Origin: Sinohyriopsis cumingii
Lineage: Eukaryota; Mollusca; Bivalvia; Unionida; Unionidae
Assembly (NCBI GenBank): GCA_028554795.2
Contig: CM068838.1
Coordinates: 85,688,944-85,752,943, forward strand
Direction of reading: 5' to 3'
DNA length: 64,000 nt
Part shown: positions 271 through 27,914 of the stretch, piece after piece
How positions within the stretch are numbered: position 1 is the stretch's first letter
Layout of the letters: every line of letters begins with the position of its first letter
Notes under the pieces: generated by a model
What the model was told of the DNA's origin: nothing
The model's input: only the letters and a program-made list of their open reading frames with translations
The model's database searches: none
Position numbers and translations under genes: made by a program

Positions 271-318
271 TTATTCGAAGTTAGCCATGTCTTGTAGTGT
301 CAGTGCATTATTGAAGTT
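271..318 (-). CDS. Cassette D tail exon: 15-residue short tail or decaying copy
   Basis: After the acceptor TTTTCTGCAG the phase-0 frame reads NFNNALTLQDMANFE and then TAA. The opening N-F-N-N-A-L matches S-F-Y-(N/S)-D-(F/L) of the other tails. Beyond the stop, in another frame (44-262), residues such as TKELKENLPAACLVLP and AYITPPSQAKS still resemble KENNQNLP and QYISPHDIKPKR of tail A. A frameshift therefore separates the two halves. It may be a functional truncated tail or an inactive copy. Confidence 0.55.
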   Translation of the reverse strand, partial: NFNNALTLQDMANFE

Positions 319-513
319 CTGCAGAAAAGAAAATTTGATGTGGAAAAAAGAAAGATTTAACTGCATCTCTACTGAATTCTAAAGATGATTTATAACAGAG
401 GTAATACTTAAAGTAATTTGTAAAATACTACAGTTGGAAAATACGCTGAAAATTACTATACAAACCAGTTATATTATTTGATTCAAAAAGAATTTGAAAG
501 AAAGAAAATTTAC

Positions 514-559
514 CATTGTCTTGGGTGTGGCTGCAGTAGGAACATTGTCTGGAATGCTT
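514..559 (-). CDS. Cassette D small exon: juxtamembrane segment
   Basis: This 46-nt exon runs from phase 2 to phase 0, with an acceptor after an eight-T tract and donor GTAAAT. It codes (R)SIPDNVPTAATPKTM. The upstream AG of the transmembrane exon plus A again gives Arg. It has the same length as the cassette E exon, and the flanking intron aligns with E (420-513 against 26660-26756). Confidence 0.7.
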
Positions 560-689
560 CTGTAAAAAAAAAGTTAATATCTGTGTAGAGCAAAAATATT
601 TAGTTGTCCTACTGATAAAGAATATCCATAAAATTGTCTGCTGTCATACATTTAATAAAAACCTAGTCAAAATTGTCTTATTTGTATTT

Positions 690-1570
690 ATAACCTTACA
701 AATATGGAATTCTTATAGCTATAAAAAAAACAACATGTAAACTAAGTTGTAGATGAAAATGTACACATTTTTTGTACATGTATTTTATGGTACACCAGCA
801 CTGCAAGGCTACATAATTAACAAGATTATATGATAAATGATTTATGCATGAAAAGCTGTTCAAGATCAAAGAGCGATAAGAAGCTGAGAACAATAAGATG
901 GCAAGAATAATGTATGAAAGTTCCTGATCTATGGGTAATGTAAATGGTATGTATAAGGGATAATAAGATATTTCAGGTGATTGATAGTACACATTTGTTA
1001 AAAATACCCAAATGTAAATGGTTGCACACAAACTATAGTTTACAATAAATGTTAACTTCCTTCAAGAAATATCAAATACATCAATTCTACCAGAAGGTGT
1101 GTTCATGTGTTGAACATTGAACTAACATCTTTGTATACATTGGAGAACAAAGCTATCAGAAAGTGCTTCACAGTAAAGGATTTGTTGCCAAAAAACACTC
1201 GAGACGAGTCTTCACCTTCCACTATGCCGCAGAGGGTTATATATAAGTATGACCAATTCTAAGTCATGCAATGATTCCCTTACACATAGTTCTGCAGGGG
1301 GTGGGTGGGTGGGTGGGTATTTGCCTAAGGAGGGTTTGACCACATGGAGGTTGTTATTGACAGCATCAGTCCAATGATGCACGCCACTTACTGAATAAGA
1401 ATTCTTTTTTAATAGGAGATGTAAGATAAGTGTATGGCATTTTAAAAACAAAGTTGCAGAGACGGGGCCAATTTGGCAGTGCACTCTGCTCTTTCATACC
1501 GACTTGAATGAGCAACTAACCATACATTATATACAGCTCTGAACAAGTGAAAACAACCATAAAATATAGT
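690..1570 (-). mobile_element. LINE fragment, C-terminal end of ORF2 (RNase H/tail region)
   Basis: Translation on the minus strand gives pieces such as WTDAVNNNLHVVKPSLGKYP. These match the text after the RNase H-like region in the second LINE fragment (11410-12300). Frames are broken by stops. A polymorphic-looking GGGT tract sits at 1298-1318. It is a 5'-truncated non-LTR retrotransposon fragment of the Jockey/I-like type. Confidence 0.6.
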
Positions 1571-1669
1571 ACATGTACAACAGATTGCAAGTCATACATG
1601 TTTAGTGACAAACTGGTCAGATAGTAAAGTGCATGAACTATTCTTTAACTAATCGATTTTTGATGTATC

Positions 1670-1845
1670 CTGTGTACTTAAATTGAGTACCCTGTGTACC
1701 TAAAAAGAGTATCATGTGTACCTAAATAGAGTATCCTAGGTACTTAGAGTATCCTGTGTACTCTAATAGAGTATCCAGTGTACTCTAATAGAGTATCCAG
1801 TGTACTCTAATAGAGTATCATGTGTACCTAAATAGTGTTTATGAA
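1670..1845. repeat. Minisatellite, 22-26 bp units
   Basis: About seven imperfect copies of a unit containing 'gagtatcctgtgtacctaa' run head to tail. The best-conserved copies, near 1745-1815, alternate 'tctaatagagtatccagtg'. No coding potential. Confidence 0.8.
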
Positions 1846-1859
1846 CTATGCACAGAAAT

Positions 1860-2536
1860 TGCTCATTTACTATTTACCTTGTGAAAGCATTGACAGGATT
1901 GTAGATTTTGATGTATTATACATACCTAGATAGGCTTTTAATCTACCTGTTCTTGTAGCCTTAGGCTAACATTAGTAAAATAAAAGTGATATTTACACAC
2001 TATAATGTGATTGGAATGAAAGAAATGATATAGTACAAGCTACTTTTGAGACCACTTGTCTTAAGACACCAGATTTTCAATGTACAGATTTACTGATAAT
2101 ACAGTGTTATGACCTGTCATGAAAGACCAGGATTTTGGGCAGTTGGAGTGTTCCTAAAAGACTAGTTCAATTACACGGTTGACTAAATTTAACATTCCAA
2201 AAGGTAAAGGCAACATAAGTTAAAAGCTTTGCTTAGATAAACTCTTCCTAATAAATGTGAAATGATACTCCAGCAAGACAACAAGTAAAATTGCAACAAT
2301 TTCTTCAATGTATAGAAAATAAAACATATGGGTAAAAACTACACAAACAGCATTCATTTTAGAAAACTAAGATTTTCTTTGGTTGTCTTTAAAGACCTGT
2401 TCAACTTCAGGAACAGACAGTTATTACCATATGTGCTGAATACAAAATTTGAATGGTCTATATTTGCTGATACTTAAATCATCTGAAAACAAAAGAATGA
2501 AGAAAAAAAAATAAATAAATAATGGTGGGCTGTCTT
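1860..2536. repeat. 3' flank of cassette C, shared with A and B
   Basis: This stretch is the presumed 3' UTR and downstream flank of tail C. It aligns with 8617-9577 (B) and its distal part with 17990-18313 (A). Shared landmarks are 'gtgaaagcattgacagga', 'taggcttttaatctacctg' and 'caagacaacaagtaaaattg'. No gene is seen inside. Confidence 0.75.
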
Positions 2537-2728
2537 CTACCTTTTTGGTTTAATATCATGGGGTGATATATACTGTATCTCGGACTGAAGGGGGAGTGGG
2601 TCTGTTGGTTCCTGTACTGGCACAAGCATCTGTCTTTCAGCATCTTCAAAAGGTCTTCTTGGACTGGCAAACATGTCAAACTGAACATTGCGTGGAGTTA
2701 GTGGTGTAGGCAAATCACTGTAGAAGCT
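2537..2728 (-). CDS. Cassette C tail exon, 63-residue cytoplasmic tail
   Basis: This 192-nt exon includes the TAG stop; the acceptor is CATTTGCAG and the phase is 0. It begins SFYSDLPTPLTPRNVQFDMF, continues ASPRRPFEDAERQMLVPV, and ends EIQYISPHDIKPKR. The first 20 residues are identical to B. The downstream flank (about 2265-2536) matches the flanks of A and B, so the 3' untranslated region was duplicated too. Confidence 0.87.
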   Translation of the reverse strand, partial: SFYSDLPTPLTPRNVQFDMFASPRRPFEDAERQMLVPVQEPTDPLPLQSEIQYISPHDIKPKR

Positions 2729-3251
2729 CTGCAAATGAAATTGGACATTTATGAACTTGACTCAACTTTGTCCCTGTTTAAATTTTGACAGTACTGTTAT
2801 AACAGAAGTGGTAGTTTAAAGTATTTGTGAAATATGTTGTTGCACTTGCAAAATGAATTAAAAAGCTGAAAATTCTACATAAACCAGACTGTATTATTTG
2901 ACAGATTCAAAATGGATTAGAAAGAAAATTAGTGTTCTGTACTTAAGCATTTACCTCATGTGTTATTGTATTGGATGTAAGAGTGCTATAAATGGAACAT
3001 GTGTTACCTAAATGACAATGCAAATAGATATGCCTATAGGGTGGAATCTGAGCAGTGTAAATATGTTAAATTCAACATAAATTTTAACCATTTTACCTTT
3101 TTTTCTACATATTTGTTATCTACAGATAGGTTTAAGAGTAACATTTTATCCATATGATTATGTCCTAGGAATATTTGTTGATGATCTATTAATCTTGAGA
3201 GAAATCATTCATCATCAGGTTAGTGAAGCTGTGTGATGAACTGTTAGGTGA

Positions 3252-3408
3252 CCTTTCTCAACCTATAAATGTACCAGCTTTCTCAACCTATAAATGTACC
3301 AACTTTCTCAACCTATATATGTACCAGCTTTCTCAACCTATAAATGTACCAGCTTTCTCAACCTATAAATGTACCCGCTTTCTCAACCTATAAATGTACT
3401 AGCTTTTG
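3252..3408. repeat. Minisatellite, 25-bp unit x6
   Basis: Six head-to-tail copies of a 25-bp unit beginning 'ctttctcaacctataaatgt' lie in the intron of cassette C. They are absent at the matching place in A and B. Confidence 0.9.
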
Positions 3409-3499
3409 GTTTATGTCTGCATCACTAAATCATCCCAAATGGATCAATTATCAAAAATCAGTGTTGTTTACGTTGATATTGGAGACCATATCAAACTTG

Positions 3500-3760
3500 C
3501 TCAAGCATTTACAGCCATCATTCTAATAATCCAAACACATGAAAGTATTGAAGGAGGCCTCCATTTGCCTTTATAGCCACCATTCTAATAATCCAAACAC
3601 ATGAAAGTGTTGAAGGAGGCCTCCATTTGCCTTTATAGCCACCATTCTAATAATCCAAACACATGAAAGTGTTGAAGGAGGCCTCCATTTGCCTTTATAG
3701 CCATCATTCTTATAATCCAAAATTTGAAGGAAGCATCCATTTGCCTTTATAGCAGATTAT
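3500..3760. repeat. Minisatellite, about 63-bp unit, cassette C copy
   Basis: Four copies of a unit with 'cattctaataatccaaacac' and 'aaggaggcctccatttgcct' are present. The same array occurs at the paralogous position in cassette B (about 10205-10432) and A (about 20094-20260). It existed before the duplications and has changed copy number since. Confidence 0.85.
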
Positions 3761-4929
3761 TACTGTTCATAACACTTTGCTTCCCATATAAAAATCTAAC
3801 CCTGTTACCCATGCCTTTCATATGACATTCATGAGGTCACAGCCTGGTTCTCCATAAATTGTAAGGCAACATCATCGTGAGGAAGTTATATTCTTGCTTT
3901 GCTGGAAGAGCCTCAAAATAAACTATTCGTTTCTGCTGTATGTTAAGCATTTGTTTTCATTGCCAGATTTCCACAAGTTATTATTTGTCAACATTGTGTG
4001 ATGAAAATAAATTTTGAAGCAAATATTGGTATGTTTTAAACAAAACAACTCGAGTTTCAAAACTTAAAACATCAATATGTAAGTACCAATATGTATTTAA
4101 TAAGCACACTTGGTGAAAGCATTCTTAAAAATATTTTAGTGAAAATTTTCACTGCTGTGCTTGCATTATATTCTTTGCAATATCAGAGTCACAAGTGAAG
4201 TGGTCGACTGGCAGTTACGTAATAATGGTGGACATTGTGGTATTTCGACAATACCTCTTCATTAGATTGACCGTATTCGTAATTCCTTGGGCACATACAT
4301 CAAGGATAATATTGAATTTAGATGAAACATAATATAACCTTCTGTGGATGAATATTTAGCTATTTTTAAAAAAAAATTATATTGGACATTGCAAAGTTGG
4401 ATAATGTAATGTGCTATATAAGGTAAAGGTTATTTTCTTACATCACTTCCTTTGTGATAATAAAATTGTGATAATTAAATAAAGCAATCACATCTAACCA
4501 GTGTTCAACAATATTACAAGTACATACAGATTATTAAAACCTATAATTTGCAATCATTTTTTGTAACAAAATTAAAACGTGTGTAGACATATTTAAAAAA
4601 AAACCCTACTTGTAAAAATACATGCACCCACATGGCATGCATGGTGCCATTTCACTCTTGGTTGTAGTGTGATTCATTGGAAATGGGGATCTTTTTCATT
4701 TAAGGATGGACTTTAATGCTTCAATTCATTGTAGAAGAATAGCTAAGGTAATGTTTTGTCGACAACAATGAAATGAAACATCAAAGTTTTGAGGTTATCA
4801 TATATTTGGAGCCTGAAAATATTTGTACTTTAGGTGTTACTAATTATAGATTCTTCACATACAATTAAATCGTTCTCACAAAAACATATTTTCTGAAGTT
4901 TGACCGTTTTCCATATTTGGTCGTCTTAA

Positions 4930-5533
4930 CACATTAACCCCTGGAGGTTTTTGTTGTTTTCACCTGAATTTCTAGTAGGAAACACATTTTGAAAGCTATT
5001 TCTGAATACATCCTAAGACATCAACTTCCAGGTGATTTTCCAATAACCTAATGCCTAGTTGTGCTAGAAATATTGTTTTTCATTGGCTATTTGATTCGCG
5101 TATGAGCAGAAGGGTAAAAGTTGGATTATTTTTTTTTGCTTAACAGACCCATTATTTTTGTATCGAGACCACTCTTTATTCCAAATGCCCATCTTATCCT
5201 ACTTTTTGCAAAGGTTCATCTGTCTGTTTGCAGCTCATACCAGTCTGCCTTAGATCTGAGACCAAAAAGTCTAAAATCCAGACACAAAATCAGATTCCGA
5301 CCACGAGCAAATTTAAGCTGGAAAAAAAATCGTGTGAAAAAAATTAGGTTTCTCCCTCTGTATTTTGTAGTGCAGCTAGAACTTCCAGATTATTTGGTAT
5401 CATTGTAGAGCTACATGTCTACCTTTCTATAATACCACCCACTTTAGTGTATCATTCATGACCTTGATGTTACAGAGCTCGGGAGTAGGCTACTACCTCC
5501 TGTCACGTTAATTCGTCGCCAGGGGTTAATGTG
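4930..5533 (+). mobile_element. piggyBac-like MITE, copy 1
   Basis: This 604-bp element is flanked by TTAA (4926-4929 and 5534-5537) with inverted ends CACATTAACCCCTGG and its complement. TTAA target duplication is diagnostic of the piggyBac superfamily. It has no transposase. It lies in the intron of cassette C. Confidence 0.85.
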
Positions 5534-5639
5534 TTAAAGGTTATTAAAGTGTGTTCTTGTTATCTGACATTAATGATGCAGTAAAAGATAGGTAAATCTA
5601 TCAAGTCATACATATGTCTTAAAATAAAGGCCTAATGTT

Positions 5640-6960
5640 TCATTTCAATGAAGAGCTGATCTCGAATATAAATATCAACTATCTAGGAAATCTCTTATTT
5701 TCAGACTTTCATGTGGAGGAAAAATACTGAAACATGACAACAAAAACTTTCTACAATGAACATGCTTTGATGAAACAGGCCATGTCATTCTAAGCTGTAG
5801 AGATGGACGCTGCAAATGACACAGCCAAATTTGGTTTCTTTTAGTCTCTTTTCTCCATGCTTGGTGCAGTATTTGAAAGAACACCATGCCTAGAAAGGCA
5901 GACATCTCAGGCACACTGGTGTCTGTCCAGTTTTGGATCACTGGTGTCATGATCTGGCTGTTGTTCAGCTGATATTTTGTTTCAGTTATGATCTTTAAAA
6001 AAAAATATAAATGAAAATGGTATAGTTCTAGAGATGTTTCATGTAAATTATGTGATGGTCCTGACTGCTGAGTAAATGGACTTGTGTCATTATCTTACAC
6101 ATCTGCAAACCAAGTTGGCTGATAATCATCAGTGTCACTCGAGTCTGATGACATTTTAATGTTGACATATGACAAAAAAAGTTCAGATCCATCATCTTAA
6201 AAGCCATCATTATTTATCAAATCTGGTATTTCATCGGAACTGAATCTAGAAATATATTTTCTGCTTTATGACAAATCTCTGTAATCAACAGACGAGGACA
6301 AAATCATTATGATGAAATCAGGGAATTCCCTTTGTAAATACAAAATGTGACTTCTGGTATCATATGTGATGTGATTTGATTGAAACTTTGCATATTGAAA
6401 TGAATGGAAGAAACTGACAACACATATTCTTAATTTTGTATTTTTATTGTATACGTCCAACAATTATGGCCGATTTCGTGTTTTGAACACCTTAAAGCTC
6501 CATTATACATAATGTATGGAAGATGACTTGTCATATTTTCCGCACATTCTAAAAATGTGATTTTAAACATAAAGAACATAATGGCATTATGAACTGATAC
6601 TATTAATGTAAGATTCAGCATCATATTTGGAAAACATTAAACTTATGGCCTTTTCACATATGTAAGTTACTTATAATAGTTCCATCAGATCGAGGTATTA
6701 CCATCGGCTAATATCACCATTTTGGATACAGCCTTGGAAAACCCCTCTATATATAATTTGTCCGTTAAATTTAGATTCATATGGTCTGATATACGTCATA
6801 TAAACCGGATGTTAGTAAAGATGATATATAAGTTTTGACCTGTGTTTGGTTATCATGCAGTGAATTGACATTTAGCTGGAAGATTTTACAAATTCATAGC
6901 ATGAACTAAAGCACAGAAATGTGTAGATGGGGGCAAAAGGTAAAGGCATAGAAAAGTGTA
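5640..6960. other. Cassette C intron, no gene seen
   Basis: AT-rich intronic sequence with several short open frames on the minus strand but no exon-like frame with splice sites. From about 6970 it resembles the intron of cassette A (20330-20480). Confidence 0.6.
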
Positions 6961-7239
6961 CCTGGGGAGTAAAGGGTTAAATACCAACCATGTTATGTAA
7001 TATAATTGTAATAGTATTTTCCCTAAAGGTGGCTCTATGAAAACCAGCTCAAAATGGCTGATGTTTACTGTAGTCATCGAAACACTCTTCCATGTGAATT
7101 GGATTGAGGCATCCATTAGCGCTTCTGTAAGAATGTGGTAGAGGTGTTCGAATGTACTTCAATAAAGTAAACGGTAAGTCTCCTACATAGATAACTGAAA
7201 TTCGTATAAAAAAATGAACATGTCTCTTCCTTTATCTAA

Positions 7240-7600
7240 GTGCAAACCAACAAAGTTTGGTCCAGGTGTGTGATGCAGAAATAATTTGTATTCCTTTAAT
7301 CACAAGGACCTTCACCACTGAATTTTGTCCCCAAAACTAATAGGTTTTTACTTACCTAAGGTGGAAGTTATCTGTGAAGAACTCAAGTTATTGCATGGAA
7401 ACTATTTTAAGTGACCTTGACCCTTGACTTTCTGATCCCAAATTAATTGGATTTTTCTTTATTCCATATGCAATTCTGGTAACTGTTAATGATGTATGAT
7501 AAAAATCATTGTGCAGAATCCATCTTTCTTTCAGTAACTGACCTTTTGACCTTAAAAACAACAGGACATTTGGTCGACATTATAACATAATACATTCCAC
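7240..7600. repeat. Interspersed repeat, 'gaccttttgacc' family
   Basis: Text with 'caagtgcaaacca', 'aaagtttggtccaggt' and 'tgaccttttgaccttaaaa' recurs at 20760-21190, 49340-49920 and 62450-62850 in this window. The first two are paralogous positions in cassettes C and A. The others are independent copies. The family is unclassified. Confidence 0.6.
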
Positions 7601-7625
7601 CTTATGACAGACATATAAACATTAC

Positions 7626-7665
7626 CATTGGAGAACTGCTGGTGGATGGAGCTTCAAGTCTGTTC
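7626..7665 (-). CDS. Cassette C small exon: juxtamembrane segment
   Basis: This 40-nt exon runs from phase 2 to phase 0, with acceptor CTTTTTACAG and donor GTAATG. It codes (R)NRLEAPSTSSSPM and is the closest relative of the B exon. The intron to its tail exon is 4.9 kb and has been expanded by a piggyBac-like MITE, minisatellites and other insertions. Confidence 0.82.
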
Positions 7666-7739
7666 CTGTAAAAAGAGAAGTTGACATTTGAGTACACATT
7701 TTGCACAGAAAAAGGGTTTAACCATCCCAGTTATTATAT

Positions 7740-8060
7740 ATGGTATCTTTTGAATCAGATTACATGTATTTTGCAGTTAGTTACTTAACTTGCACAGTTC
7801 CAGTGAAACTCAAATTATTCTTGCTATCTTTACTATTGTTGTCTACTCTTTCCTCTATGACTTTAGTGACATTTTTTTATACTTTTTTGTTTTTACCAAT
7901 GCCTAACTGGTGTCATTCATAGTTTAGGAGACAAAATACACAGTCGAAAATCCCCTTATCTCCCAGCCTATTTATGTTCTTCTCACTGTATTAGTAATAT
8001 TGTGCTTTTTTACTTCATTTATGATAATTTGTCAAAATATGCCCCATGTTACGATCTTAA
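7740..8060. repeat. Inverted segment relative to the region upstream of cassette A
   Basis: The sequence is the reverse complement of about 21600-21860, for example 'tatctcccagcctatttatg' here against its complement near 21724. The blocks on both sides (7666-7735 and 8284-8480) are in direct orientation with the cassette A region. Confidence 0.7.
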
Positions 8061-8283
8061 TAAAACAATTAGTGTAAACTTTCATCTACAAATTGACAAG
8101 CTTTGGATGTTTGCAAAAGCACCATTGTCAAAGAGGTGCTCTACGAAAGTTCAAAATAGTAAATAAACATATGTAACAAATTACTGATAGAAATGTGTTT
8201 ATCTTAATCTTTGTTGTCAGGACTTTATTCGTATGAAATCTATTTGTTATTTTACTCTTATTTAAAATTTTAGACAACTTTTC

Positions 8284-8510
8284 TTCTCAACAAATGGAAG
8301 CACAGTCTTCATATCTGACAGGATTCTCCAATCACAAAAGTTGAAGGTTTTACATTGTAATGTAATCTTGTGGTAACACTGATATTACTATATTTTTCAT
8401 GCAATCCATGTGATCTACAAAGTAATGTAATCTTGTTGCTACACTGACAGTGTTTGCATGTACCCGATCTAATCTACTATGTGCTGTAATCTTTTGAAGT
8501 CTATTTCATT
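8284..8510. repeat. Decayed copies of the 66-bp satellite unit
   Basis: About three diverged units of the 'atcttgtggtaacactgaca' type match the large 66-bp array upstream of cassette A (21998-23262). They lie at the paralogous place upstream of cassette C. Confidence 0.6.
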
Positions 8511-8616
8511 TAGGATATATTGGAAAATTTGCACAAGCAAACTAATAACAAAAAAATGTAGTTTAATATGTAAAACGACTGTTTATGAACTGTATGTACA
8601 GAAATATACTATTAAT

Positions 8617-8795
8617 CTATTATGTACTGTATCCCTGTGAAAGCATTAACAGGACTGTGAAGTTTTATGTGTTCTATTTACCTAAATAGGCTTTTAATCT
8701 ACCTGTCTATTATGTACTGTATCCCTGTGAAAGCATTAACAGGACTGTGAAGTTTTATGTGTTCTATTTACCTAAATAGGCTTTTAATCTATCTA
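8617..8795. repeat. Tandem duplication, about 89 bp x2
   Basis: Two nearly identical copies of a block containing 'gtgaaagcattaacaggact' and 'taaataggcttttaatct' occur in the 3' flank of cassette B. One copy of the block occurs at about 13495 and one at about 1875. Confidence 0.85.
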
Positions 8796-8799
8796 TTAT

Positions 8800-9045
8800 T
8801 GGATTAATGAGGTGTGCACACATTAAGTGCATGTACCTCGGATTTATGATGGCACTGTGGCCTGTTAATTGTTCCTGGGGGAAGGAATTAGTACCTCATC
8901 CCCCAGGCATTTATGTGCTCAAGGAGCACTGTTAATTTAGCCTCAGGATGTCTAGCGGCCTTTTTGAGGTCCCTCTGTAACTTGCGCCTGCATTTATTGT
9001 GCAGTCTATGTTTTTGGACCATGATACCATGATGTGCGCGAATTA
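8800..9045. other. Insertion in the cassette B 3' flank, unclassified
   Basis: This relatively GC-rich block, with 'cctcatcccccaggcattta', interrupts the flank alignment between B and the copies at 1950 and 13580. It has no recognised terminal repeats or coding frame. Confidence 0.4.
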
Positions 9046-9577
9046 TCAAGGGATATGTGTATCATATGATTGAAATGATACAGTACAACCCGCTATTATG
9101 AGACCACTTGTCTTAAGACACGAATGTACTGATTATAGTGTTATGACCCATCATGAAAGACCAGATTTTTGGCAGTAGGACTGTTCTTCACAAACTAGTT
9201 CATATAAATGGCTGACTAAATGTACCATTCCAAAATGTAAAGGCAAAATAAGCCAAAAGCTTTGGGAAGATAAACACTTCCAAACAAATGTGAAAAGATA
9301 CTCATGCAAGACAACAAGTAAAATTGCAACAATTTCTTCAAGGTATACAAAATAAAACATGGGTAAAAACTGAAAAAAAATGATACACAAACAGCATTCA
9401 TTTGGTCATCATTTAAGACCTATTCAATTAAAGGAACAGACAGTTGTTACTGTATGTGCTGAATACAAAATAATGGACTATATTTCCGGATTCTTGAAAT
9501 CATTTGAAAACAACCTGTCCAACAAAGAAGGATTTGAAAAAGGAAGAAGAAACAAATTAAAAATGTTCGGCTGTCTT

Positions 9578-9769
9578 CTACCTTTTTGGTTTAGTATCAT
9601 GGGGTGATATATAATGTATTTCGGACTGAAGGGGGAGTGGGTCTGTTGGTTCCTGTACTGGCACATGGTTCTGTCTCTCTTTGCCTTCGAAAGTTTTTCT
9701 TGGACTGGTGAACATGTCAAATTGAACGTTGCGTGGAGTTAGTGGTGTAGGCAAATCACTGTAGAAGCT
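9578..9769 (-). CDS. Cassette B tail exon, 63-residue cytoplasmic tail
   Basis: This 192-nt exon includes the TAG stop; the acceptor is CATTTGCAG and the phase is 0. It begins SFYSDLPTPLTPRNVQFDMF, continues TSPRKTFEGKERQNHVPV, and ends EIHYISPHDTKPKR. It is the same length as C and differs by scattered substitutions, including the loss of one acidic residue in the FE(D/G) core. The reading frame is intact although the introns have diverged, which suggests it is maintained. Confidence 0.87.
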   Translation of the reverse strand, partial: SFYSDLPTPLTPRNVQFDMFTSPRKTFEGKERQNHVPVQEPTDPLPLQSEIHYISPHDTKPKR

Positions 9770-10204
9770 CTGCAAATGAAATTGGAATTTATGAGCTTGG
9801 GTTCAACTGTATCAATATTTAAATGTTGATAGCACTTGTATAACAGAAGTGGTAATTTGTGAAATATGTCGATTTGCAAGAAAACTGGAGCACTGAACAT
9901 AGCACATTATATGCCATTATTTTATGCTTAAGTATTGACCTCACAGCATCTGTTAGTGTGTAGGATGTACATATATATGTGTCAAAGAGTGCTATAAATA
10001 GAACTGTTACCTAAATGACAATGCAAATAGGTCTACCTATAGAATGGATAGCAGTGTAAATATGTTAAGTATAATATAAATTTTAACCATCATACCTTTT
10101 TTTGTACATATTTGTTATCTATATTTAAAAATTCATCTGAAATGGATAAATTATCAAAAATCTGTGTTGGTTACATTGATTTTGGAGCCTATATCCAACT
10201 TACA

Positions 10205-10432
10205 CTTAAGCATTTACAGCCATCATTCTAATAATCCAAACTCATGAAAGTGCTGAAGTAGGCCTCCATTTGCCTTTATAGCCATCATTCTAATAATCCA
10301 AACACATGAAAGTGTTGAAGGAGGCCTCCATTTCCCTTTATAGACATCATTCTAATAATCCAAACACATGAAAGTGTTGAAGTAGGCCTCTATTTGCCTT
10401 AACAGCCATCATTCTAATAATCCAAACAATGG
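10205..10432. repeat. Minisatellite, about 63-bp unit, cassette B copy
   Basis: Three to four copies of the 'cattctaataatccaaac' unit are present, paralogous to the array in cassette C at 3500-3760. Confidence 0.8.
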
Positions 10433-10635
10433 TGACTCTATGAAAACCAGCTCAAAATGGCTGATGTTTACTGATGCCATAATTTGAAATACTCTTCCAT
10501 GTAGCTGGTGGTGCACAGACATCAAAACATGCTTGTATGTGAATTGGAAGGAGCTGCACCCAATATCACTTGCATGAGAATTGTAACTGTGACATTTTGA
10601 TCTTAAAAATTACTGGACAACATCATAACATAATA

Positions 10636-11259: not shown

Positions 11260-11299
11260 CATTGTAGAACTGCTGGTGGGTGGAGCTTCATCTTTCTCC
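11260..11299 (-). CDS. Cassette B small exon: juxtamembrane segment
   Basis: This 40-nt exon runs from phase 2 to phase 0, with acceptor TTTTTACAG and donor GTAATG. It codes (R)EKDEAPPTSSSTM. The intron downstream is short (1.5 kb) and carries a Tigger-like MITE (10636-11224). Its upstream intron is interrupted by a LINE fragment from about 11410. Confidence 0.82.
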
Positions 11300-17987: not shown

Positions 17988-18313
17988 TATTATTATTATT
18001 ATTGTTATACTCCAGCAAGACAACAAGTAAAATTGCAACATTTTTTGAATATATGCAAAATAAAACATAAATGCAAGAGTTGAAAAAAATAATAGACAAA
18101 AAACATTTGTTTTTGAAACTAAGATTTTCTTTGGTCATCTTTTAAGACCTTTTCAACTGAAGGAACAGACAGCTATTGCTGTATGCATTGAGTACAAAAT
18201 AAGAATGGACTATATTTCCTGATACTTCAAATCATTTGTAAACAATCTATTCAACGCTGAAGATTTGAAAAAGGGATTAGGAAAAGAAATAATGAAAAAT
18301 GTTGAGCTGTCTT

Positions 18314-18550
18314 CTACCTTTTTGGTTTGATATCATGGGGTGATATATACTGCATCCCGGACTGAAATGGGAACCTAACTGGCAAGTTCTGATTGTTTTC
18401 CTTTGTTTTCATGGGTATCTCAGGGTCTGTCAGTTCCTCGTCTATTGGCACAAACTTCTTTACTTCTGTGTCTTCAAAAGGATTTCCTGGACTGTTGAAT
18501 GTGTTTACCTTACGTGCAGGTACAGGTACATAGAAATCATTGTAGAAGCT
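18314..18550 (-). CDS. Cassette A tail exon, 78-residue cytoplasmic tail
   Basis: The acceptor is CATTTGCAG and the phase is 0. The frame begins SFYNDFYVPVPARKVNTFNS, passes through PGNPFEDTEVKKFVP, and ends FQSGMQYISPHDIKPKR with a TAG stop. It is 15 residues longer than tails B and C because of an acidic and polar insert (DPEIPMKTKENNQN). The ends align closely with B and C, so the C terminus is conserved while the middle varies. The stop reads AG|GTAGAA, a weak donor-like context. Confidence 0.88.
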   Translation of the reverse strand, partial: SFYNDFYVPVPARKVNTFNSPGNPFEDTEVKKFVPIDEELTDPEIPMKTKENNQNLPVRFPFQSGMQYISPHDIKPKR

Positions 18551-18748
18551 CTGCAAATGAAATTGGATATTTATGAACTTAGGCTCAACTGCGTCCCTAT
18601 TTAAAGTTTGATAATACTTGATTAACATTAGTGGTAATTTAAAGTAATTTGTGACATATGCTAATGCACTTGCAAAATGAATTAAAAAGCTGACAATTGC
18701 AACATAAACCAGGTTGTATTATTTTTGACAGACTCAAAATGGATTTAA

Positions 18749-19273
18749 CTCATTCGACCCCTTAGCTTTTTGTCATTTTCGCCTGAAATGTGCGTAGGAA
18801 AGACATTGGGGGGCTATTTCTGAATACATTGTAATACATCAGCTTTCAACAGATTTTCCATGAGACTAATGCCTAGTTGTATTAGAAACATCATTTTCCA
18901 TTGGTTATTTTGCTTGCGCATGAGCAGAAGGGTAAAAGTTGGAGTTCTTTTTTTACTTGTCTGTGTGCAGTTAAGACTGGTTTGCCTTAGATCTGAGGCC
19001 AAAAGGTATAAAATCCAGACACAAAATCGCATTCCGACCTCGAGTGAATTTTGGGTGAAAAAAAAAAACGGGTCCAAAAATGGAGGTTTTTCCCTCTGTA
19101 TTTTGTAGTGCAACTAGAACTTCCAGATTATTTGGTATCATTTTAGAGCTATATCTGTCTGCTTTTTTTAAATACTGCCCACGTTGGTGTATTTTGAATG
19201 ACCCTGGTGCTGCAGAGCTTGGAAACAGGGTACAGCCTCATTACGCTTACAGATGGGATCAAAGCCAAATCGG
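18749..19273 (-). mobile_element. piggyBac-like MITE, copy 3, older
   Basis: It is flanked by TTAA (18745-18748 and 19274-19277) with degraded inverted ends. The body matches copies 1 and 2, for example 'gagcagaagggtaaaagttg'. It sits in the intron of cassette A. The paralogous intron of cassette C near 2917 reads straight through and represents the empty site. Confidence 0.75.
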
Positions 19274-19465
19274 TTAAAAGAAGATTAGGGTACTGAACAC
19301 AGCACATTATATGGCAGTACTCTATGCTTAACCGTTTACCTCATAACATCTCTCATTGTGTAGGCTGTCCATATATATGTCTCAAAGAGTGCTATAAATA
19401 GAACATGTGTTACCTAAATGACTATGCAAATAGGTCTACCTTTAGAATAGATAGCAGTGTAGTTA

Positions 19466-19783
19466 TGTGTTTTGGATTTCTTAACGTAACTTTAACAAAT
19501 TTTCAGTCATATCACTACAATGTCTGCATTGTGGCAGTTTATTGTGATGTCTAGCACTAGGACATCATGCCACAAACATGCAGAATCATGTTCCACCCAG
19601 CCACATTATCCTGACACAAGGCTGACCGGTCCTAACACTAACCTCTTAATGTTGAGTGCCTAGTGAGGCAGCTGCTAGTACTGTTTTATAAGTCCTTGAT
19701 ATTAATTGGCTGGGGTTTCAACCTGCAACCTCCCACATCCGAGGCGGATGTTCTAACCACTTAGGCCACTGAATCGGTAGTGT
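19466..19783 (-). mobile_element. SINE family 2, tRNA-derived
   Basis: On the minus strand a tRNA-like head ('gtggcctaagtggttagaac' and a B-box-like 'gaggttgcaggttgaaacc') precedes a conserved body. That body is shared with 29860, 54180 and 63232. The 3' end lies near 19466. Confidence 0.75.
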
Positions 19784-20093
19784 AGATATGTTAAGTTCAA
19801 CATAATTTTTTGTGTGTACATATTTGGTATCTATGGAGAGGTTCAAGAGTAAATCCTGCTCTATATGATTGTATATTATTTTTCATAGAAGATTTGTTGA
19901 CACATTTTAAAACTTTGAGAGATAACATTCAACATCAAGTCAGAGAAACTGAGTGACAAACTATTTCACTACCTCTAAATCTTCTGGTTCACTGTCAATG
20001 CATGTATCGCTAAATCATCAGAATTGGATAAACTGTATAAAAATTAGTGTTGTTTCCATTGATAGTAGAGCCTATTATGTGACTTATTTCAAG

Positions 20094-20260
20094 CCATCAT
20101 TCTGATCATCCAAACACATGAAAGCAGTGAAGGAGACCTCCATTTGCTTTACAGCCATCAATCTAATAATCCAAACACATGAAAGTGTTAAGGAGGCCTC
20201 CATTTGCCTTTATAGCCATCGTTCTAATCATCCAAAGCGCTGAAGGAGGCATCCATTACC
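20094..20260. repeat. Minisatellite, about 63-bp unit, cassette A copy
   Basis: Two to three diverged copies of the 'cattctaataatccaaacac' unit lie at the position paralogous to those in cassettes B and C. Confidence 0.7.
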
Positions 20261-20759
20261 TTTGAAGCTTTTTGTTACTATACCTTAAATACCAAACGGG
20301 TCATGTGACACCATTTACTTCAGTGACAGAAGTTTGTAATAGTATTTTCCCCAATGGTGGCTCTATGAAAACCAGCTCAAAATGGCTGATGTTTACTAAA
20401 GCCATAAAAATACTTTTCCATGTGGATGCTGCACAGACATCAAAACACGCTTGTATGTGAATTGGATGGAGGCACCCAACAGCACTTGCATGAGAATTCA
20501 TTAACTGTGACCATTGACCTTAAAAATGACAGAACAGTTGGACAACATCATAGCACAATACAGTATGACCCTGCAATAGCATGCTCTACTATAACATGAA
20601 TTTGGATATAACATGATCATGGAATGGCTCCTGAAATTTCAAATACCTGCTTCTATGTGAAATGGATGGGGCCACCCAATAGCACTTCCATGAGAATGTG
20701 GTAGAGGTGTCCAAAAGTATTTATATGAGGTAATGGGTTAATAGTCCTCTATATATTCA

Positions 20760-21190
20760 ACTTAAGTTTGCAAAAATCAACATACTTCTTCCTTATTCAA
20801 GTGCAAGCCATTCACAGAGTTTGGTCCAGGTATGTGGCAGTAATTTGTAAACCTTTAGATGCTTACCACTAATCTGATGACCCCAAAAATGAAGATTTTT
20901 TTCTTACTAAAAGTACAAGCCATCTACAAAGTTTGGTAACTGTAGATGAGGAAGAGTGTAAATTATTGTATGGAATCTATTTTCTTCTTTCAAAGTGAAC
21001 TCGGCCTTTGACTTTCATAACCTGAAATTGATTTGGTTCTCCTTTACCCAACAGAAAATCATCCAGAAATTGTGGTAACTATGGTGATCATTCAAGTCAT
21101 TGAGCAGAAAGAATATTTCTTTCAGTCACATTAACTGTGACCTTTTGACCTCAAAATAGATTGGACATCATAACAAAATACATTCCACCT
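20760..21190. repeat. Interspersed repeat, 'gaccttttgacc' family, cassette A
   Basis: This is the paralogous copy of 7240-7600. Landmarks are 'aagtttggtccaggtatgtg' and 'ctgtgaccttttgacctc'. Confidence 0.6.
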
Positions 21191-21213
21191 TATCACAGGT
21201 ATGTAAACATTAC

Positions 21214-21244
21214 CATTGAAGAACTGCTGGCTTGACCTTTATTC
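21214..21244 (-). CDS. Cassette A small exon: juxtamembrane segment
   Basis: This 31-nt exon runs from phase 2 to phase 0, with acceptor TTTTTACAG and donor GTAATG. It codes (R)NKGQASSSSM. Compared with B and C it lacks nine bases, three codons, so the frame is kept. Serine-rich content suggests possible phosphorylation, which is inference. The intron to its tail exon is about 2.7 kb and contains a piggyBac-like MITE and a SINE. Confidence 0.82.
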
Positions 21245-21997
21245 CTGTAAAAAGAAGAAAAGTTGACATTTAGGTGCACATTTTGCACAGGAAATGGATT
21301 TAGTCACCTAGACATGAAGACATGAATGTGCATAAATTGGAAAGCTGTCGTTTTGAAGAAAATCAGTCTAAAATCTTAACCAAAATTGTGTCAGACTGCA
21401 AAAAAAAAAAAATCATAAAACAAATTAAGATGAAAACAGTCCTGACAACAAAGACTAAAATCAATACACTTATTTGCATTCCGTATATACAATAATTTGC
21501 TGCATTTGTTAAATTTACAAATTTTAATTTTTGCACAACTATTTTCTTTACTATGTAGCTTTTGCAAAAATTCAAAACTTGGTAAGTTGATTCTTAATGA
21601 AAGTATACACGTAAAATTTTTTAAGATCTTAACATGGGGCAAATTTTGACAAATTATCTCAAATCAACAAATCAACTTATGAAAAAGCACAATAGTATCA
21701 CTACAGTGAAAAAAATATAAATATGCTGGGAGATAAAAGGATATTTTACTGTGTATTTACATTGGTAAAAACAAAACAATACAAAAAATTTAACAAAAGT
21801 TGTTGAGGAAAGAGTTGTAGAGAATAGTAAAGATAAGTAACTAAGTGCAAACTACATGTCATTTGATTCATAACAACCGACAGTATGCTCCAACTACAAA
21901 AGTTAAAGGTGTTCTTGATCAAGGAAAATTTCAAGTAAAACAATCTTGACAATAGATTTTAATGTATCCTATCCAACTCAATAGACCATCTATCTGC

Positions 21998-23262
21998 AAT
22001 CTATTAATCTTGTGGGAACACTTACAGTACTAGATATTTTCATGTATCCCCTCTGATCTACCATGTACAATGATCTCGTGGGAACACTCAAGATAATTTC
22101 ATGTATCCCCTCTGATCTACAATGTACTGTAATCTCGTGGGAGCACAGAGTACTATATATTTTCATGTATCCCCTCTGATCTACAATGTACTGTAATCTC
22201 ATGGGAGCACTGACAGTATGAGATATTTTCATGTATCCCCTCTGATTTAATATTACTGTGAGCTTGTGGGAACACTGACAGTACTAGATATTTTCATGTA
22301 TCCCCTCTGATTTAATATGTACTGTGAGCTTGTGGGAACACTGACAGTACTAGATATTTTCATGTATCCCCTCTGATTTAATATGTACTGTGAGCTTGTG
22401 GGAACACTGACAGTGTGAGATATTTTCATGTATCCCCTCTGACTTAATATGTACTGTGCGCTTGTGAGAACACTGACAGTATGAGATATTTTCATGTATC
22501 CCCTCTGATTTAATATGTACTGTGCGCTTGTGAGAACACTGACTGTATGAGATATTTTCATGTATCCCCTCTGATTTAATATGTACTATGCGCTTGTGGG
22601 AACACTGACAGTATGAGATATTTTCATGTATCCCCTCTGATTTAATATGTACTGTGTGCTTGTGAGAACACTGACAGTGAGATATTTTCATGTATCCCCT
22701 CTGATTTAATATGTACTGTGCGCTTGTGAGAACACTGACAGTATGAGATATTTTCATGTATCCCCTCTGATTTAATATGTACTATGTGCTTGTGGGAACA
22801 CTGACAGTATGAGATATTTTCATGTATCCCCTCTGATTTAATATGTACTATGCGCTTGTGAGAACACTGACAGTATGAGATATTTTCATGTATCCCCTCT
22901 GATTTAATATGTACTGTGCGCTTGTGAGAACAATGACAGTACTAGATATTTTCATGTATCCCCTCTGATTTAATATGTACTGTGCGCTTGTGGGAACACT
23001 GACAGTACTATACAATTTCATGCATCCCCTCTGATTTAATATGTACTATGCACTTGTGGGAACACTGACAGTACTATATAATTTCATGGATACCGTCTGA
23101 TCTACCATGTACTATGATCTTGTGGGAACAGTGACAGTATGAGATATTTTTATGTATCCCCTCTGATTTAATATGTACTATGCGCTTGTGGGAACACTGA
23201 CAGTACTATCTAATTTCATGGATACCATCTGATCTAATATGTACTGTAATCTTGTGGTAACA
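21998..23262. repeat. Satellite-like array, 66-bp unit, about 19 copies
   Basis: Head-to-tail copies of a 66-bp unit contain 'gatattttcatgtatcccct' and 'cttgtgggaacactgacagt'. Because 66 is a multiple of three, long but meaningless open frames run through it. It lies between tail E and the small exon of cassette A. Confidence 0.95.
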
Positions 23263-23289
23263 CCGACAAGTGAAATAGTGAAAATCTCA

Positions 23290-25860
23290 TACTAACACTT
23301 TACATTTGTATAAAATATGATAATAATACATTTGTAATAAGGTTGGTGAAAGACCAAATCTTCTCAATGACTTCATACAATTTTTTTATTTTGAATAATA
23401 ACATATGTTTAATGCTTCAGCGTGATGCAGTCAGAATACTAAAATGATGCTTTACAACCCATGCCTGGCAATGATGCTGTTATAATCAAATGATTGGTAC
23501 ATCTTATTTCAAATGTTACATTTATTTCAGTTATGCAACATCTAATTTGCATTTCATGATAACTTTGTGGTTTTCTTGGATCAGCATGACTTAGATTATG
23601 AAATTCACAATATATATCACATTTCAAAGTCTCAAATGTTACTTATTTTGATCCCTTGGGTTGATCAATCCCTATAGGCTTTCATCTCAGCATTTCTTTG
23701 TCTATTTATTTATCTATATATTCAACAGGAGCAGATATATGCTGGTTTGCTGATTTTCTTAAGATGATTTTTTGGCATAAGGTGATTGTAATTATTTCAT
23801 TCCAACAAATGAACAAACCCTGGTAGTGCAGAAACCCTATATTTATGGTCAAATGTCACCTAGCTCTGTGTGCGGATACCACATTTTTATGGCACAGGAC
23901 AGTGATGTCTACGGATGTCCAATCTAGGCCAATCATTAATTGTATGCTAATAATAACTGGGAGATAGCATATGTAACAGTCTCGATGATCAGGGCTTTGC
24001 ATCACTGAAACATTATATCAGTGAAACAAATATTCAAACTGACTATTTGCCCAAGAAAGTCTGTCGTCAGCCATGGATGTTGATGTAAACAATATGGTGG
24101 CTGTTAAGTAGCTGCAGTCTCGCAGCTGTCCCATTCTCAGTTGGCACTGATTACTGTATATATGTATGGGATGGTCCTAATTAGAATAAAAGTTTGTGAG
24201 GGCTTTGTGTGGAGGAATAGACAGCAATATGCAGTTTTCCAAATCTGAGATTTTTTTGCAGGAATATACCATGTGTTGATATGAAAGTGCTCTGACACTA
24301 TCGCGTGTTGATATATAAGTGCTTTAACCTGGCCATCCCATTCAGTAATAACTTTAAAGCTACAGTAAATAAAGCTTAAACTATATAGTAGCTAAGTTTA
24401 TCAATGAGTCTTTTCTTATACTGGATGATACATTGTATCATCAAGAGTGAGAACTGTACTAGCTTGAAAGGGATCAACTAGTCATTTTACGGGGGGGTGG
24501 GGATTGGGGGGGTTCGAGTGTCAACTCCAACATCTTCATTCCTTGCCTATCATTTAAAAAAAATAAAAATCACAATATTTCTATCACATTATAAAGTTCA
24601 TTTTGCTCTGCTTCTCTCTCTCTCTCTCTCTCTCTCAGCAATCAAGTTGAAAAAGAAGTGGACAAAAGAGAGAGAGAGATTCACTTCTTAATTTAACCCA
24701 CTCTTATGACAGCAATGTGAAATTTATGTGACTTTGGAATCTAATAATCAAGACCTTCATCCAACATCTGAACTTTTGACCCGGAAGAAATCTTTTTTTT
24801 TCCTTCCTCGTCAGTTCATTTTGTTTTGTTTTAACAGAGCTAGTTTCTGCAGTAGGCCAATAAACATAAAAAGCTTGATCTCTGTTTTAACCCCTCAAAT
24901 GTTTGACAATGTAGAAGTTAAGATATGTTAAGATTGTTGCTGAGAAACTTAATTTCAAATATTTTTGGCAAGCTGCAATTATTAATTATCACTGAAAACT
25001 TCACAACTCTTGCTCAATAATTTATAATCAATGAGAAATATTTATGTAAATATTTGGTAATAATGAATTTCAGGCCTCTCAAATGTACAGCTCCACTCTA
25101 AATAATACCTGATAACCAATATCACTTTCATACATGTGTACTGGACACAATAGCTCCCAAGTGTTTTTAAACTCCATCTCTCCGTGTTCCTACTGTTGTT
25201 TATTTCTGCATCACTTGGTGGTGAAAATCAAAGAGCTAACTTGGTAGCACACTGGCATTTTTTTGGCTGTTTCATTACTATGTATAACCGAAAATTGGTA
25301 CACTACTGTTGTATTGCGACAAGACCCAAACTAATGGCTGTGATAATATTGCTCTATCTGATGATACTGCATTCAAATCATTCAGTTGTAGACACTAGAA
25401 TGTAAAAGAATTAAATATGTCTATTTGGTAGGCCACTGACAGTTGTGGAAGTGAATAATTTTTAACAGTATTTATTTTGTTTTGAAAGAAAAATTTATAT
25501 TTGTTTATTTACATGATGTGATGAAATAATAGTCCACTGCAGTCAATAACAAACCTGAAGATGGATTTTGTGTCAGTTACTACATTTGTCACATGTATAA
25601 TTGTATTCATCAAATTTATTCTTGCAACCAACAGTAACTGCTTATATAGATGTTTACATAAAAATCTGTTTTTAGACATCTGCCTTTCAACAATTTTCAA
25701 ATGAGATAACTAGTTCTCTACATTATGATAATTATTATTTTACCTTTATAATTAAAACAACTTGATAATATTGAGTTCTTTGAACAATGAATGCTGTATT
25801 TAGTTGGATAAAAGATTCTGCTAACAATATTATTTTAAACAGTCTTTTAAACCTTTCAAA
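23290..25860. other. Intron between cassettes E and A, no gene seen
   Basis: AT-rich sequence with a G-rich tract at 24491-24512, a (TC)n run at 24611-24637 and a matching (GA)n run at 24666-24680 that could form a hairpin. No exon-like frame was found. Confidence 0.6.
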
Positions 25861-25877
25861 CACTAGCATTACTTTTT

Positions 25878-25893
25878 GGTTGCTATGGCAACC
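25878..25893. promoter_or_regulatory. Perfect palindromic RFX-type X-box
   Basis: GGTTGCTATGGCAACC fits the known RFX consensus (GTTGCC/T-N-R-GYAAC type) on both arms. The palindrome is extended outward (ACTTT...AAAGT). It lies about 520 bp downstream of tail exon E. Function is inference. Confidence 0.45.
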
Positions 25894-26416
25894 AAAGTAA
25901 ATTTGTAAATATTTATCATTTTCAGTATGATTAGTATTTGTTCCTTATCAATGAACTATATAAGTGAATGGAATTATGTTTTATGTGGGGAAAATTTGTA
26001 TATAATAAATACATAAATATTGCACCATCTAAGTAGTGTACCATACTGAAATGTAGAGATGTGTTTGAAAGTAAAGTTTAAATTATCTAGCCGAGGCCTA
26101 AAAGTTATGAACTGAGGATATGTAATACGTAGAAACAAATTTACTGTCCATGTACACATTCAGAATCAATATATTTGATTTTTTGGGTAAAAATTACTTT
26201 TCCACCCATTTTCTGTATTTTTGTAGTTGTTATATGGATTTGGCCCAAAAAGTCTGTTTTGTTCTAAAACAATTCAGCATACACAGAGAAGGCAGTTAGA
26301 AACAAATCAGCACTAGCTTCATGGTCATGCCAAAACAACACAGTATTACCAGGGTTAAATGCCAAAATTATTTAGAACCAAGAAAAACTAATTTTTTGTG
26401 TGAATTTTTACAGGAC

Positions 26417-26548
26417 TTACCACATGCGAAATCGTGAGAGATCCTTTGAAAGATAATCTGGCACAAGTTTCTCTTTTCTTGTGCTTTCTACAGGAGGCAT
26501 TGAACAGATGACTGTGTCCGCAAGGAATGCTGATACTGGAGTATTGAC
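26417..26548 (-). CDS. Cassette E tail exon, 43-residue tail ending in a TAA within a GTAAGT donor
   Basis: The acceptor (GAAG at 26549-26552) follows a CT-rich tract. The frame reads VNTPVSAFLADTVICSMPPV, then STRKEKLVPDYLSKDLSRF, RMW, TAA. The stop lies inside a perfect donor (TG|GTAAGT at 26421/26420). The exon can therefore end translation, or splice on in phase 2, which is the phase accepted by every downstream small exon. If spliced on it would be 26421-26548, 128 nt. It shares the K-x-x-(L/F)-V-P core with the other tails but lacks their common C terminus. Confidence 0.75.
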   Translation of the reverse strand, partial: VNTPVSAFLADTVICSMPPVESTRKEKLVPDYLSKDLSRFRMW

Positions 26549-26756
26549 CTTCAGCAAGAGAAATTGGATATTTAAGAAATGAAGCTTAACAATATTTCTG
26601 TTTATATTCTGACAGTTCTATTACAACAGTAGTGATATTTGAATGTAACTTGTACAATTTTGCACTTGCAAAATAAATTTATACGCTGAAAACTAATATA
26701 TCACCAGATTATATTATTCAACCGTTTCAAAATAGATTTGAAAATACAAATATTAC

Positions 26757-26802
26757 CATTGGCTTGGTCTTGTCTGTACCAAGAATCTTGACTCGAATGT
26801 AC
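26757..26802 (-). CDS. Cassette E small exon: juxtamembrane segment
   Basis: This 46-nt exon runs from phase 2 to phase 0. The acceptor is CTTTTTACAG and the donor is GTAATA. It codes (R)YIRVKILGTDKTKPM, a basic stop-transfer segment directly after the membrane helix. It ends at an ATG codon next to the donor like the other four cassettes, and it has the same length as the cassette D exon. Flanking intron text is homologous to cassettes A-D, for example the stretch around 26660-26760 against 420-513. Confidence 0.88.
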
Positions 26803-27299
26803 CTGTAAAAAGAGAAGTTGAAATTTGAGTAGAAAATTTGAAGAAATTTTTGGTTACCCTATCCATGAAGCATATGCATATGTTTTGAAAGAAAATCAAT
26901 TGAAATTCTTTCAAAAAGTGTGTTGTAAAAATCTTCTAAATAATTCTGCTGCATCTGTTTCATTCACTAACTTTAATTTCCTTAAATATGTAGCTTTTTG
27001 GCAACAGTTCTAAGTATGTAAATTTGATTCATTAAAGTTTACACATTATTTTATTAAGATCTCGACATGAGCCAAATTTAGATAAATGATAAAATATTAT
27101 AAATCAACAGTGAAACATTATGGGACCCCCTTCCCACTTCAATCTGGCATAACTAGAATTGAGTACCAAAATTTTTCATGCAGCAATCATTAACATATAT
27201 GTACATCTGGACAAAATTTCATGGAAATCAGACATCAGGTCATCTGGGAAGATTTTTAAAATTTGACTGACTGGTATGGCATGACCCAAGTATGTATAC

Positions 27300-27316
27300 A
27301 TATATATATATTTTTT
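27300..27316. repeat. Short (TA)n run
   Basis: A TA run followed by a T tract lies in the intron between the transmembrane exon and cassette E. This intron otherwise shows no gene. Confidence 0.7.
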
Positions 27317-27649
27317 CACTACAAAAAATGTGGTTTGCTTGTTAAATATGGGGATTTTATTTTGGCTCATTATATTATAGTGACTAAAGATCTAGAGAGG
27401 TTAAAATATTTATGGTGATAAATTTGTTTGGGATTCATTTTTCCGATGTCATCCTGACACTGCTAAATTGCAAATAATTTCAGCATTAAAATTTCTCGCT
27501 TTGTTTATTTTTTTTCTTTTTCAGAAACCAGTTGAGTCAAAAGGATGCTGATTTTCCTATATTTATAAAAGTGCTCTGAAATTCTAATGTTTAATATTAA
27601 AAGTGGTATTATTAGGTAAGGAATAGATGTATAAGTATATTGTACTTAC

Positions 27650-27914
27650 CTCCCAATGAAGAACACCCCTACACCAAAGACTGCCAAACCAATAAAGGTC
27701 ATGACAAGAATGAAGTAAAGCTGTGTAATGCACTCGTATCCATTACCACGATTTTTGCATGTCTGGAACGAGTAGCAGGGGTTTTTGCCACAAGCGTTCA
27801 CCTCTATATCACAATACTGGCCCTTGTATCCCGCATCACAGTTACAATAGTAGTACTTCTCAAATCCCTGGTTGCGTCGTAAGTCATTACAGCTGTACCA
27901 ATTGGGATGCAAAC
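27650..27914 (-). CDS. Exon 11: EGF-like module(s) and transmembrane helix
   Basis: This 265-nt exon runs from phase 1 to phase 2, with acceptor ATATTTCAG and donor GTAAGT. It completes an EGF-like domain: YYYCNCDAGYKGQYC has the C-x-C...G-Y-x-G-x-x-C signature. A second, shorter cysteine cluster follows (NACGKNPCYSFQTC, GYEC). About 22 hydrophobic residues come next, beginning LYFILVMTFIGLAVFG and ending VFFIG, which is a clear membrane-spanning helix. The exon ends in the first two bases of an Arg codon (AG). Every cassette's small exon supplies G or A, so Arg is kept whichever tail is used. Confidence 0.93.

Follow-up and report, generated by a model that had tools for sequence, protein, structure and literature searches.

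A 64,000-nucleotide stretch of the Sinohyriopsis cumingii genome (C15:85688944-85752943, where C15 is contig CM068838.1; henceforth termed the window) carries a receptor gene, g1, in which one transmembrane (TM) exon is followed by five tandem exon pairs predicted to encode cytoplasmic tails. Two relatives on the same contig are termed g2 and g3. Upstream of these pairs, g1 comprises 11 exons between 62002 and 27650 on the minus strand, with AG/GT at every border and consistent phases. Translated together, the exons give 721 residues, with an EGF-like region and a TM helix at the C-terminal end; the unit is an intact cadherin-like/EGF-like ectodomain with its TM segment. Pfam searches with the separate ectodomain pieces returned nothing above the cut-offs; domain matches came after the exons had been joined, namely a Big_9/Cadherin_4 domain (E 7.5e-8 and 1.2e-5) and a weak EGF match adjoining the membrane. 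The Pfam listing holds seven families at E<=5, covers the in-window part of the ectodomain and has passed HMMER filters that remove most matches above E 0.1. By sequence, the closest solved structures are Notch EGF repeats, and a match to Cadherin-23 in the PDB has an E of 0.43. The true 5′ end of g1 was not found, e1 being the first exon detected within the window. A search for a second TM exon ahead of or within the array, covering 94 kb (the window plus 30 kb further downstream) at E<=1e-4, found none, the sole match being the known TM exon itself.

Downstream of the phase-2 donor of the TM exon (AG|) lie five two-exon cassettes, c1-c5, all in frame with the TM exon and all reaching a stop. 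A sequence-only reading of this DNA had proposed five tandem cassettes, and both exon mapping and a profile search of the 94 kb recovered them: at E<=1, exactly five small and five tail exons were found, with E values of 2e-19 to 1e-76 that are not independent, since the profile was built from those same exons. The border features described in that reading also hold in all five. The first base of each small exon completes AG|N to an Arg codon (G in c1-c4, A in c5), and each small exon ends in ATG|GTAA and hands phase 0 to a tail exon with its own in-frame stop. Counting the shared Arg, the predicted tails of c1 to c5 comprise 59, 89, 77, 77 and 31 residues. The last of these, 27 kb from the TM donor, is a truncated tail: its homologous 3′ half runs on past the stop, and similarity to the other four tails and to the sequence flanking them on the 3′ side extends to about position 128.

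The introns were also held to be homologous, which is true of particular segments. The 40 bases upstream of the small-exon acceptors show a mean identity of 81% over the ten cassette pairs, the highest of the windows compared (59-61% for the next 120 bases upstream, 61% for the first 28 bases of the exon), a value that includes the T-rich tract common to any acceptor; random 40-mers of the window average 57%, with single pairs reaching 90%. The 120 bases upstream of the tail exons show clearer homology (0.68-0.74), and the introns of c2, c3 and c4 carry a common 61/62-bp tandem repeat. Elsewhere homology is patchy: past the nearest 40 or so bases upstream and 30 bases downstream of a small exon, most pairs lie near background (0.57-0.61).

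C15 also carries two close relatives of the TM exon, g2 at 86.617 Mb (97% at the amino-acid level) and g3 at 87.325 Mb (79%). The first is a duplicate 0.9 Mb from g1, and its array is directly seen to keep the g1 order: c1, c2, a relic tail, a c3/c4 hybrid and c5. The small exon of the hybrid is c3-like and its tail c4-like, and the junction lies in the 61/62-bp tandem repeat, units of which were read by eye in the g2 sequence. Because of this position, unequal crossing-over between the c3 and c4 introns would be the simplest account of the hybrid. Downstream of g3, one intact cassette was found in the 40 kb searched, with a 90-residue tail that contains stretches resembling c1, c2 and c3/c4. 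The array is older than g1. Genome matches to e2 number nine including itself, three each on C15, C13 and C2, and thereby add six more distant family members with 39-45% amino-acid identity in this exon (C13:30.49/51.82/52.61 Mb and C2:63.40/64.63/85.49 Mb). In the two of the three C13 members that were examined, the tail consists of one two-exon unit, closed by a stop and entered in phase 2 as in g1 (TM donor read by eye); 20 kb in these members held no second convincing tail copy, only one weak match (E 0.065) on the opposite strand. With single two-exon tails in these relatives, a terminal tail of this kind is the most likely source of the array, which would have arisen in the C15 branch, the direction of growth being a deduction from this comparison.

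We propose that c1-c5 are alternative last-exon cassettes of a type I receptor gene whose 3′ half lies in the window, spliced from one TM donor, and assign this reading a probability of roughly 62%. The TM-exon donor (27649) of the pre-mRNA would be joined to one of several homologous acceptors, with one cassette per mRNA. The selected small exon would then lead to its own tail exon, which would bring the stop and the 3′ end, and one ectodomain would thus be given tails of any of the five lengths listed above. The array would have grown from a single two-exon tail and been reshaped by unequal crossing-over in its repeat-bearing introns. Exon anatomy and conservation among the paralogues are observed directly; transcription, cassette choice, 3′-end formation and signalling are proposed here from genomic sequence. 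Positions of poly(A) hexamers were considered and discarded as evidence: such hexamers occur within 2.5 kb after nine of nine tails examined and are too common in AT-rich DNA.

Purifying selection acts on the ectodomain of g1, which is intact. A comparison of its exons and the TM exon with those of g2 (10 exons, e1 lying outside the g2 stretch used) gives a dN of 0.014 and a dS of 0.070 (dN/dS 0.20), and the ratio between g1 and g3 over 11 exons is 0.30. The tails behave differently, and several observations on them weigh against our proposal. Across the eight cassette exons that can be compared between g1 and g2, dN is 0.078 and dS 0.064, with a flank K of 0.058, a ratio of about 1.2; tail amino acids drift at about the neutral rate between these two genes, and 19 non-synonymous changes, over 187 sites, fall in the c2 tail alone. 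The c3 tail and the c4 small exon are without a g2 counterpart and were excluded from these values and from the simulation below. Arrays also decay, as seen in the relic tail within the g2 array, a frameshifted second tail in g3 and an orphan tail at C15:86397047-86397401 with one in-frame stop. Neutral drift, these broken tails and a single intact cassette in the g3 region searched are what would be expected if tandem duplication had left one working tail beside little-used, drifting exon pairs. Yet the four comparable cassettes have remained intact after about 6% divergence: between g1 and g2 there is no frameshift, premature stop, stop loss or broken AG/GT, and c1 differs by one 3-base in-frame insertion. 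In neutral simulations with rates taken from 6,896 flanking bases (0.064 substitutions and 0.0119 indels per base), all four stayed intact in none of 20,000 runs, the individual chances being 0.061 for c1, 0.022 for c2, 0.034 for c3/c4 and 0.205 for c5. At about half the indel rate, P is 0.00035-0.00085. With indels left out, intactness of all four is just mildly unlikely (P 0.030-0.065), another point on the unfavorable side, so that it is mainly the lack of frameshifts that carries the result. Acceptor regions are alike in all five cassettes, which also speaks against decay, as do the reading frames of the intact g3 tail and the g1 c1, c2 and c4 tails, open despite a dS of about 0.7-0.9. The dN/dS of 0.53-0.89 between this g3 tail and those three, of 0.74-0.82 between the c2 tail and that of c3 or c4, and of 0.38 between the c3 and c4 tails shows weak purifying selection over longer spans. 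We consider a single working tail among decaying duplicates improbable. Neutral substitution, named in the sequence-only reading as a sign against it, is thus partly present: it is seen in the tail ratio, whereas gene structure is conserved.

Where the tails end is a further point of uncertainty, one that the sequence-only reading had not raised. Each tail exon of c1-c4 has a phase-2 GT precisely at its end and could in principle join the next cassette. The cassettes, or at least c1, would then be arranged in series: the apparent tail stop would be the start of an intron, and c1 an internal pair, included in some or all mRNAs and spliced in phase (TG|G) to c2, c3 or c4 (or c5) to give compound tails. 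At c1 the stop lies upstream of the homologous stop site, inside GTG|GTAAGT, nine bases identical to the predicted e2 donor; GTAAGT is kept in g2, and the site is a strong donor, scoring 5.8 in a simple weight matrix (top 0.23% of GTs on the strand). The same matrix gives 7.8 for the TM donor. The predicted small-exon donors are weak (1.8-3.1), little above the GT at the c2-c4 stop sites (1.0), which slightly favors a series for c2-c4 as well. Against this stands a comparison of 13 tail copies, some not intact (five of g1, five of g2 including the relic, two of g3 and the orphan). TAG occurs at the homologous site in 10 of the 13; a GT lies directly there in eight of these 10, and G|GTAG is found in just four. 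The two copies with TAG and no GT directly there are g1 c5 and the first g3 tail, which ends GAA TAG; of the remaining three copies, two c1 copies have TAA and one site is unrecognisable. The c3/c4 cassette of g2 has lost the -1 G of the donor yet kept the stop, and in the C13 relatives the tail exon is simply terminal. From the conservation of TAG without GT or -1 G, and from the plain stops of the first g3 tail and the C13 members, we conclude that c2-c4 end in real stops. Consecutive splicing of all cassettes, with c5 alone terminal, is unlikely in light of the stop homology with g3 and C13 and the -1 G loss in the g2 hybrid, and was rejected. A version confined to c1 may hold, c1 being possibly internal rather than terminal. 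Overall, we regard serial cassettes as rather unlikely.

The long distances alone, such as that from the TM donor to c5, could suggest that the extra cassettes are separate genes or are driven by promoters inside the array. This we find hardly credible: no further TM exon was found in the array, although no promoter search was made, and every small exon supplies at its start the single base required after the TM exon. The claim of five alternative ends behind one TM exon stands for the single TM exon, for the homology of the five ends and for their retention through a gene duplication, with frames and splice dinucleotides intact in the four comparable cassettes; it is weakened for c1, which may be internal.

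Should alternative last exons be used, a difference between the tails in tyrosine content might matter for signalling. In g1, c2-c4 share the C-terminal stretch YISPHD(I/T)KPKR, which c1 and c5 lack, and c5 has no tyrosine. YISPH, in which we presume a YxxP adaptor motif, is found in all five intact c2/c3/c4-type tails of g1 and g2, a count without a statistical test. Hence c2-c4 might be adaptor-binding ends and c5, perhaps also c1, signalling-poor or decoy ends. An ITIM-like reading of SFYSDL in c3/c4 was dropped as a main point, g2 having SFNSDL. More tentatively still, the intracellular part may be the diversifying side of this receptor family, with a conserved ectodomain, an expandable 3′ array whose protein may drift or diverge as splice sites and frames are held, crossing-over at intronic minisatellites and last-exon choice per cell. 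The array also offers a natural experiment on which features of a tail are indispensable (entry phase, acceptor, stop, a short C-terminal motif) and which can change, and its three linked copies (five tails; five with one relic; one intact and one broken) make array growth and loss traceable in one genome.

Table 1. Exons and shared intron repeats of g1 in window coordinates.
Feature	Position	Strand	Basis or remark
e1, ectodomain exon	61832..62002	-	AG/GT, phase fits; g3 homologue 83% aa
e2, ectodomain exon	58042..58467	-	borders/phase, paralogue comparison; nine genome matches including itself
e3, ectodomain exon	56162..56318	-	borders/phase, paralogue comparison
e4, ectodomain exon	53807..53946	-	borders/phase, paralogue comparison
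e5, ectodomain exon	52652..52743	-	borders/phase, paralogue comparison
e6, ectodomain exon	49042..49234	-	borders/phase, paralogue comparison
e7, ectodomain exon, part of Big_9/cadherin-like domain	39241..39349	-	borders/phase, paralogue comparison, Pfam
e8, ectodomain exon, part of Big_9/cadherin-like domain	38447..38657	-	borders/phase, paralogue comparison, Pfam
e9, ectodomain exon	32267..32470	-	borders/phase, paralogue comparison
e10, ectodomain exon	28716..28914	-	borders/phase, paralogue comparison
EGF-like and TM exon	27650..27914	-	phase-2 donor GAG|GTAAGT
c1 small exon	26757..26802	-	0 changes vs g2 over 45 coding bases
c1 tail exon	26417..26548	-	stop TAA within GTG|GTAAGT; own acceptor GCTGAAG| poor by eye
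c2 small exon	21214..21244	-	phase/splice borders, paralogue comparison
c2 tail exon, 78 aa, stop TAG	18314..18550	-	phase/splice borders, paralogue comparison
61-bp form of shared tandem repeat, c2 intron	20092..20236	.	repeat comparison
c3 small exon	11260..11299	-	phase/splice borders, paralogue comparison
c3 tail exon, 63 aa, stop TAG	9578..9769	-	phase/splice borders, cassette comparison
62-bp tandem repeat, c3 intron	10213..10428	.	repeat comparison
c4 small exon	7626..7665	-	phase/splice borders, cassette comparison
c4 tail exon, 63 aa, stop TAG	2537..2728	-	phase/splice borders, paralogue comparison
62-bp tandem repeat, c4 intron	3508..3721	.	g2 c3/c4 hybrid junction falls in this repeat
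c5 small exon	514..559	-	phase/splice borders, paralogue comparison
c5 short tail exon, 15 aa, stop TAA kept in g2	271..318	-	phase/splice borders, paralogue comparison

Further repeats and pieces resembling mobile elements were noted in the window. A 79-bp tandem repeat at 38964-39298 overlaps the 3′ end of e7 and extends into the intron, with pieces of the exon repeated there. Large minisatellites lie in the introns of g1 as modelled at 47780-48911, 22091-23268, 30702-31778, 49995-50823 and 50985-51644, with units of 51, 66, 105-244, 46 and 37 bp, respectively; in the one with 51-bp units, several frames are open. The e8-e9 intron contains a long open transposase frame (34711-36351, minus strand) with DDE_1, Tc5-type HTH and CENP-B_N matches, which we take to be pogo/Tigger-like. 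Peptides encoded at 59927-60175 and 42730-44713 resemble, by eye, a reverse transcriptase fragment and gag/protease-like retroelement pieces.

Alternative cytoplasmic ends as such are known; the accounts cited in the following are excerpts of open-access papers. Vertebrate Pcdh15 combines one ectodomain and TM segment with the alternative cytoplasmic ends CD1, CD2 and CD3, and the function of CD2 is essential (PMC4119359). This layout is shared with g1, where it is predicted from genome sequence; Pcdh15 has three ends, and g1 has five that are visibly homologous tandem copies. Orthology of g1 to PCDH15 is not supported by the in-window ectodomain: the seven Pfam families listed for it do not include the ordinary Cadherin family, and the Cadherin-23 match in the PDB is weak. 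In Dscam of the shrimp Penaeus monodon, alternative splicing picks stop-bearing tail exon 44.1 or 44.2, and there are optional tail exons too; its ectodomain is hypervariable, the 44.2 sequence lies inside 44.1, and the excerpt describes no homologous two-exon tail array (PMC6851185). These two precedents count against the idea that a constant ectodomain with a variable inside simply reverses the known arrangement; what survives of it is the set of five homologous ends.

Drosophila Dscam1 uses tandem homologous exons, one per mRNA, in arrays that encode ectodomain and TM, with endodomain exons 19 and 23 merely included or skipped according to the excerpt (PMC3364881). c1-c5 are likewise tandem homologous exons. 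They do not have the form of internal alternatives that return to a shared downstream exon, with stops kept in g2, g3 and C13 and c1 being ambiguous. An Ig/FN3 ectodomain with a membrane-adjacent FN3 was not seen either, neither FN3 nor an animal-type Ig being among the Pfam families listed; Big_9 is named a bacterial Ig domain in Pfam. Clustered protocadherins have variable cassettes at the 5′ end that are joined to a shared part. Tandem 5′ cassettes joined to a shared part are also described for chelicerate sDscam (PMC4835542). The variable cassettes are thus 5′ in both systems, as far as the sDscam excerpt goes, and 3′ in g1. A cadherin-repeat ectodomain in variable first exons, as in clustered protocadherins, was not found in g1, whose in-window ectodomain is spread over 10 exons with only a bacterial-type cadherin-like/Big_9 domain. 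The Drosophila genes lola and mod(mdg4) join a constant 5′ part to an array of alternative 3′ ends. They share the 3′-end array with g1, but encode nuclear transcription factors rather than a receptor. Same-phase acceptors behind one donor, each leading to its own stop, are present in five of five g1 cassettes, with c1 ambiguous. No tandem array of homologous two-exon cytoplasmic tails was found among the open-access literature matches listed, and within those excerpts an array of five such tails behind one TM exon appears to be new. If used, it would provide one detector outside with several insides, a mirror image of Dscam and the clustered protocadherins.

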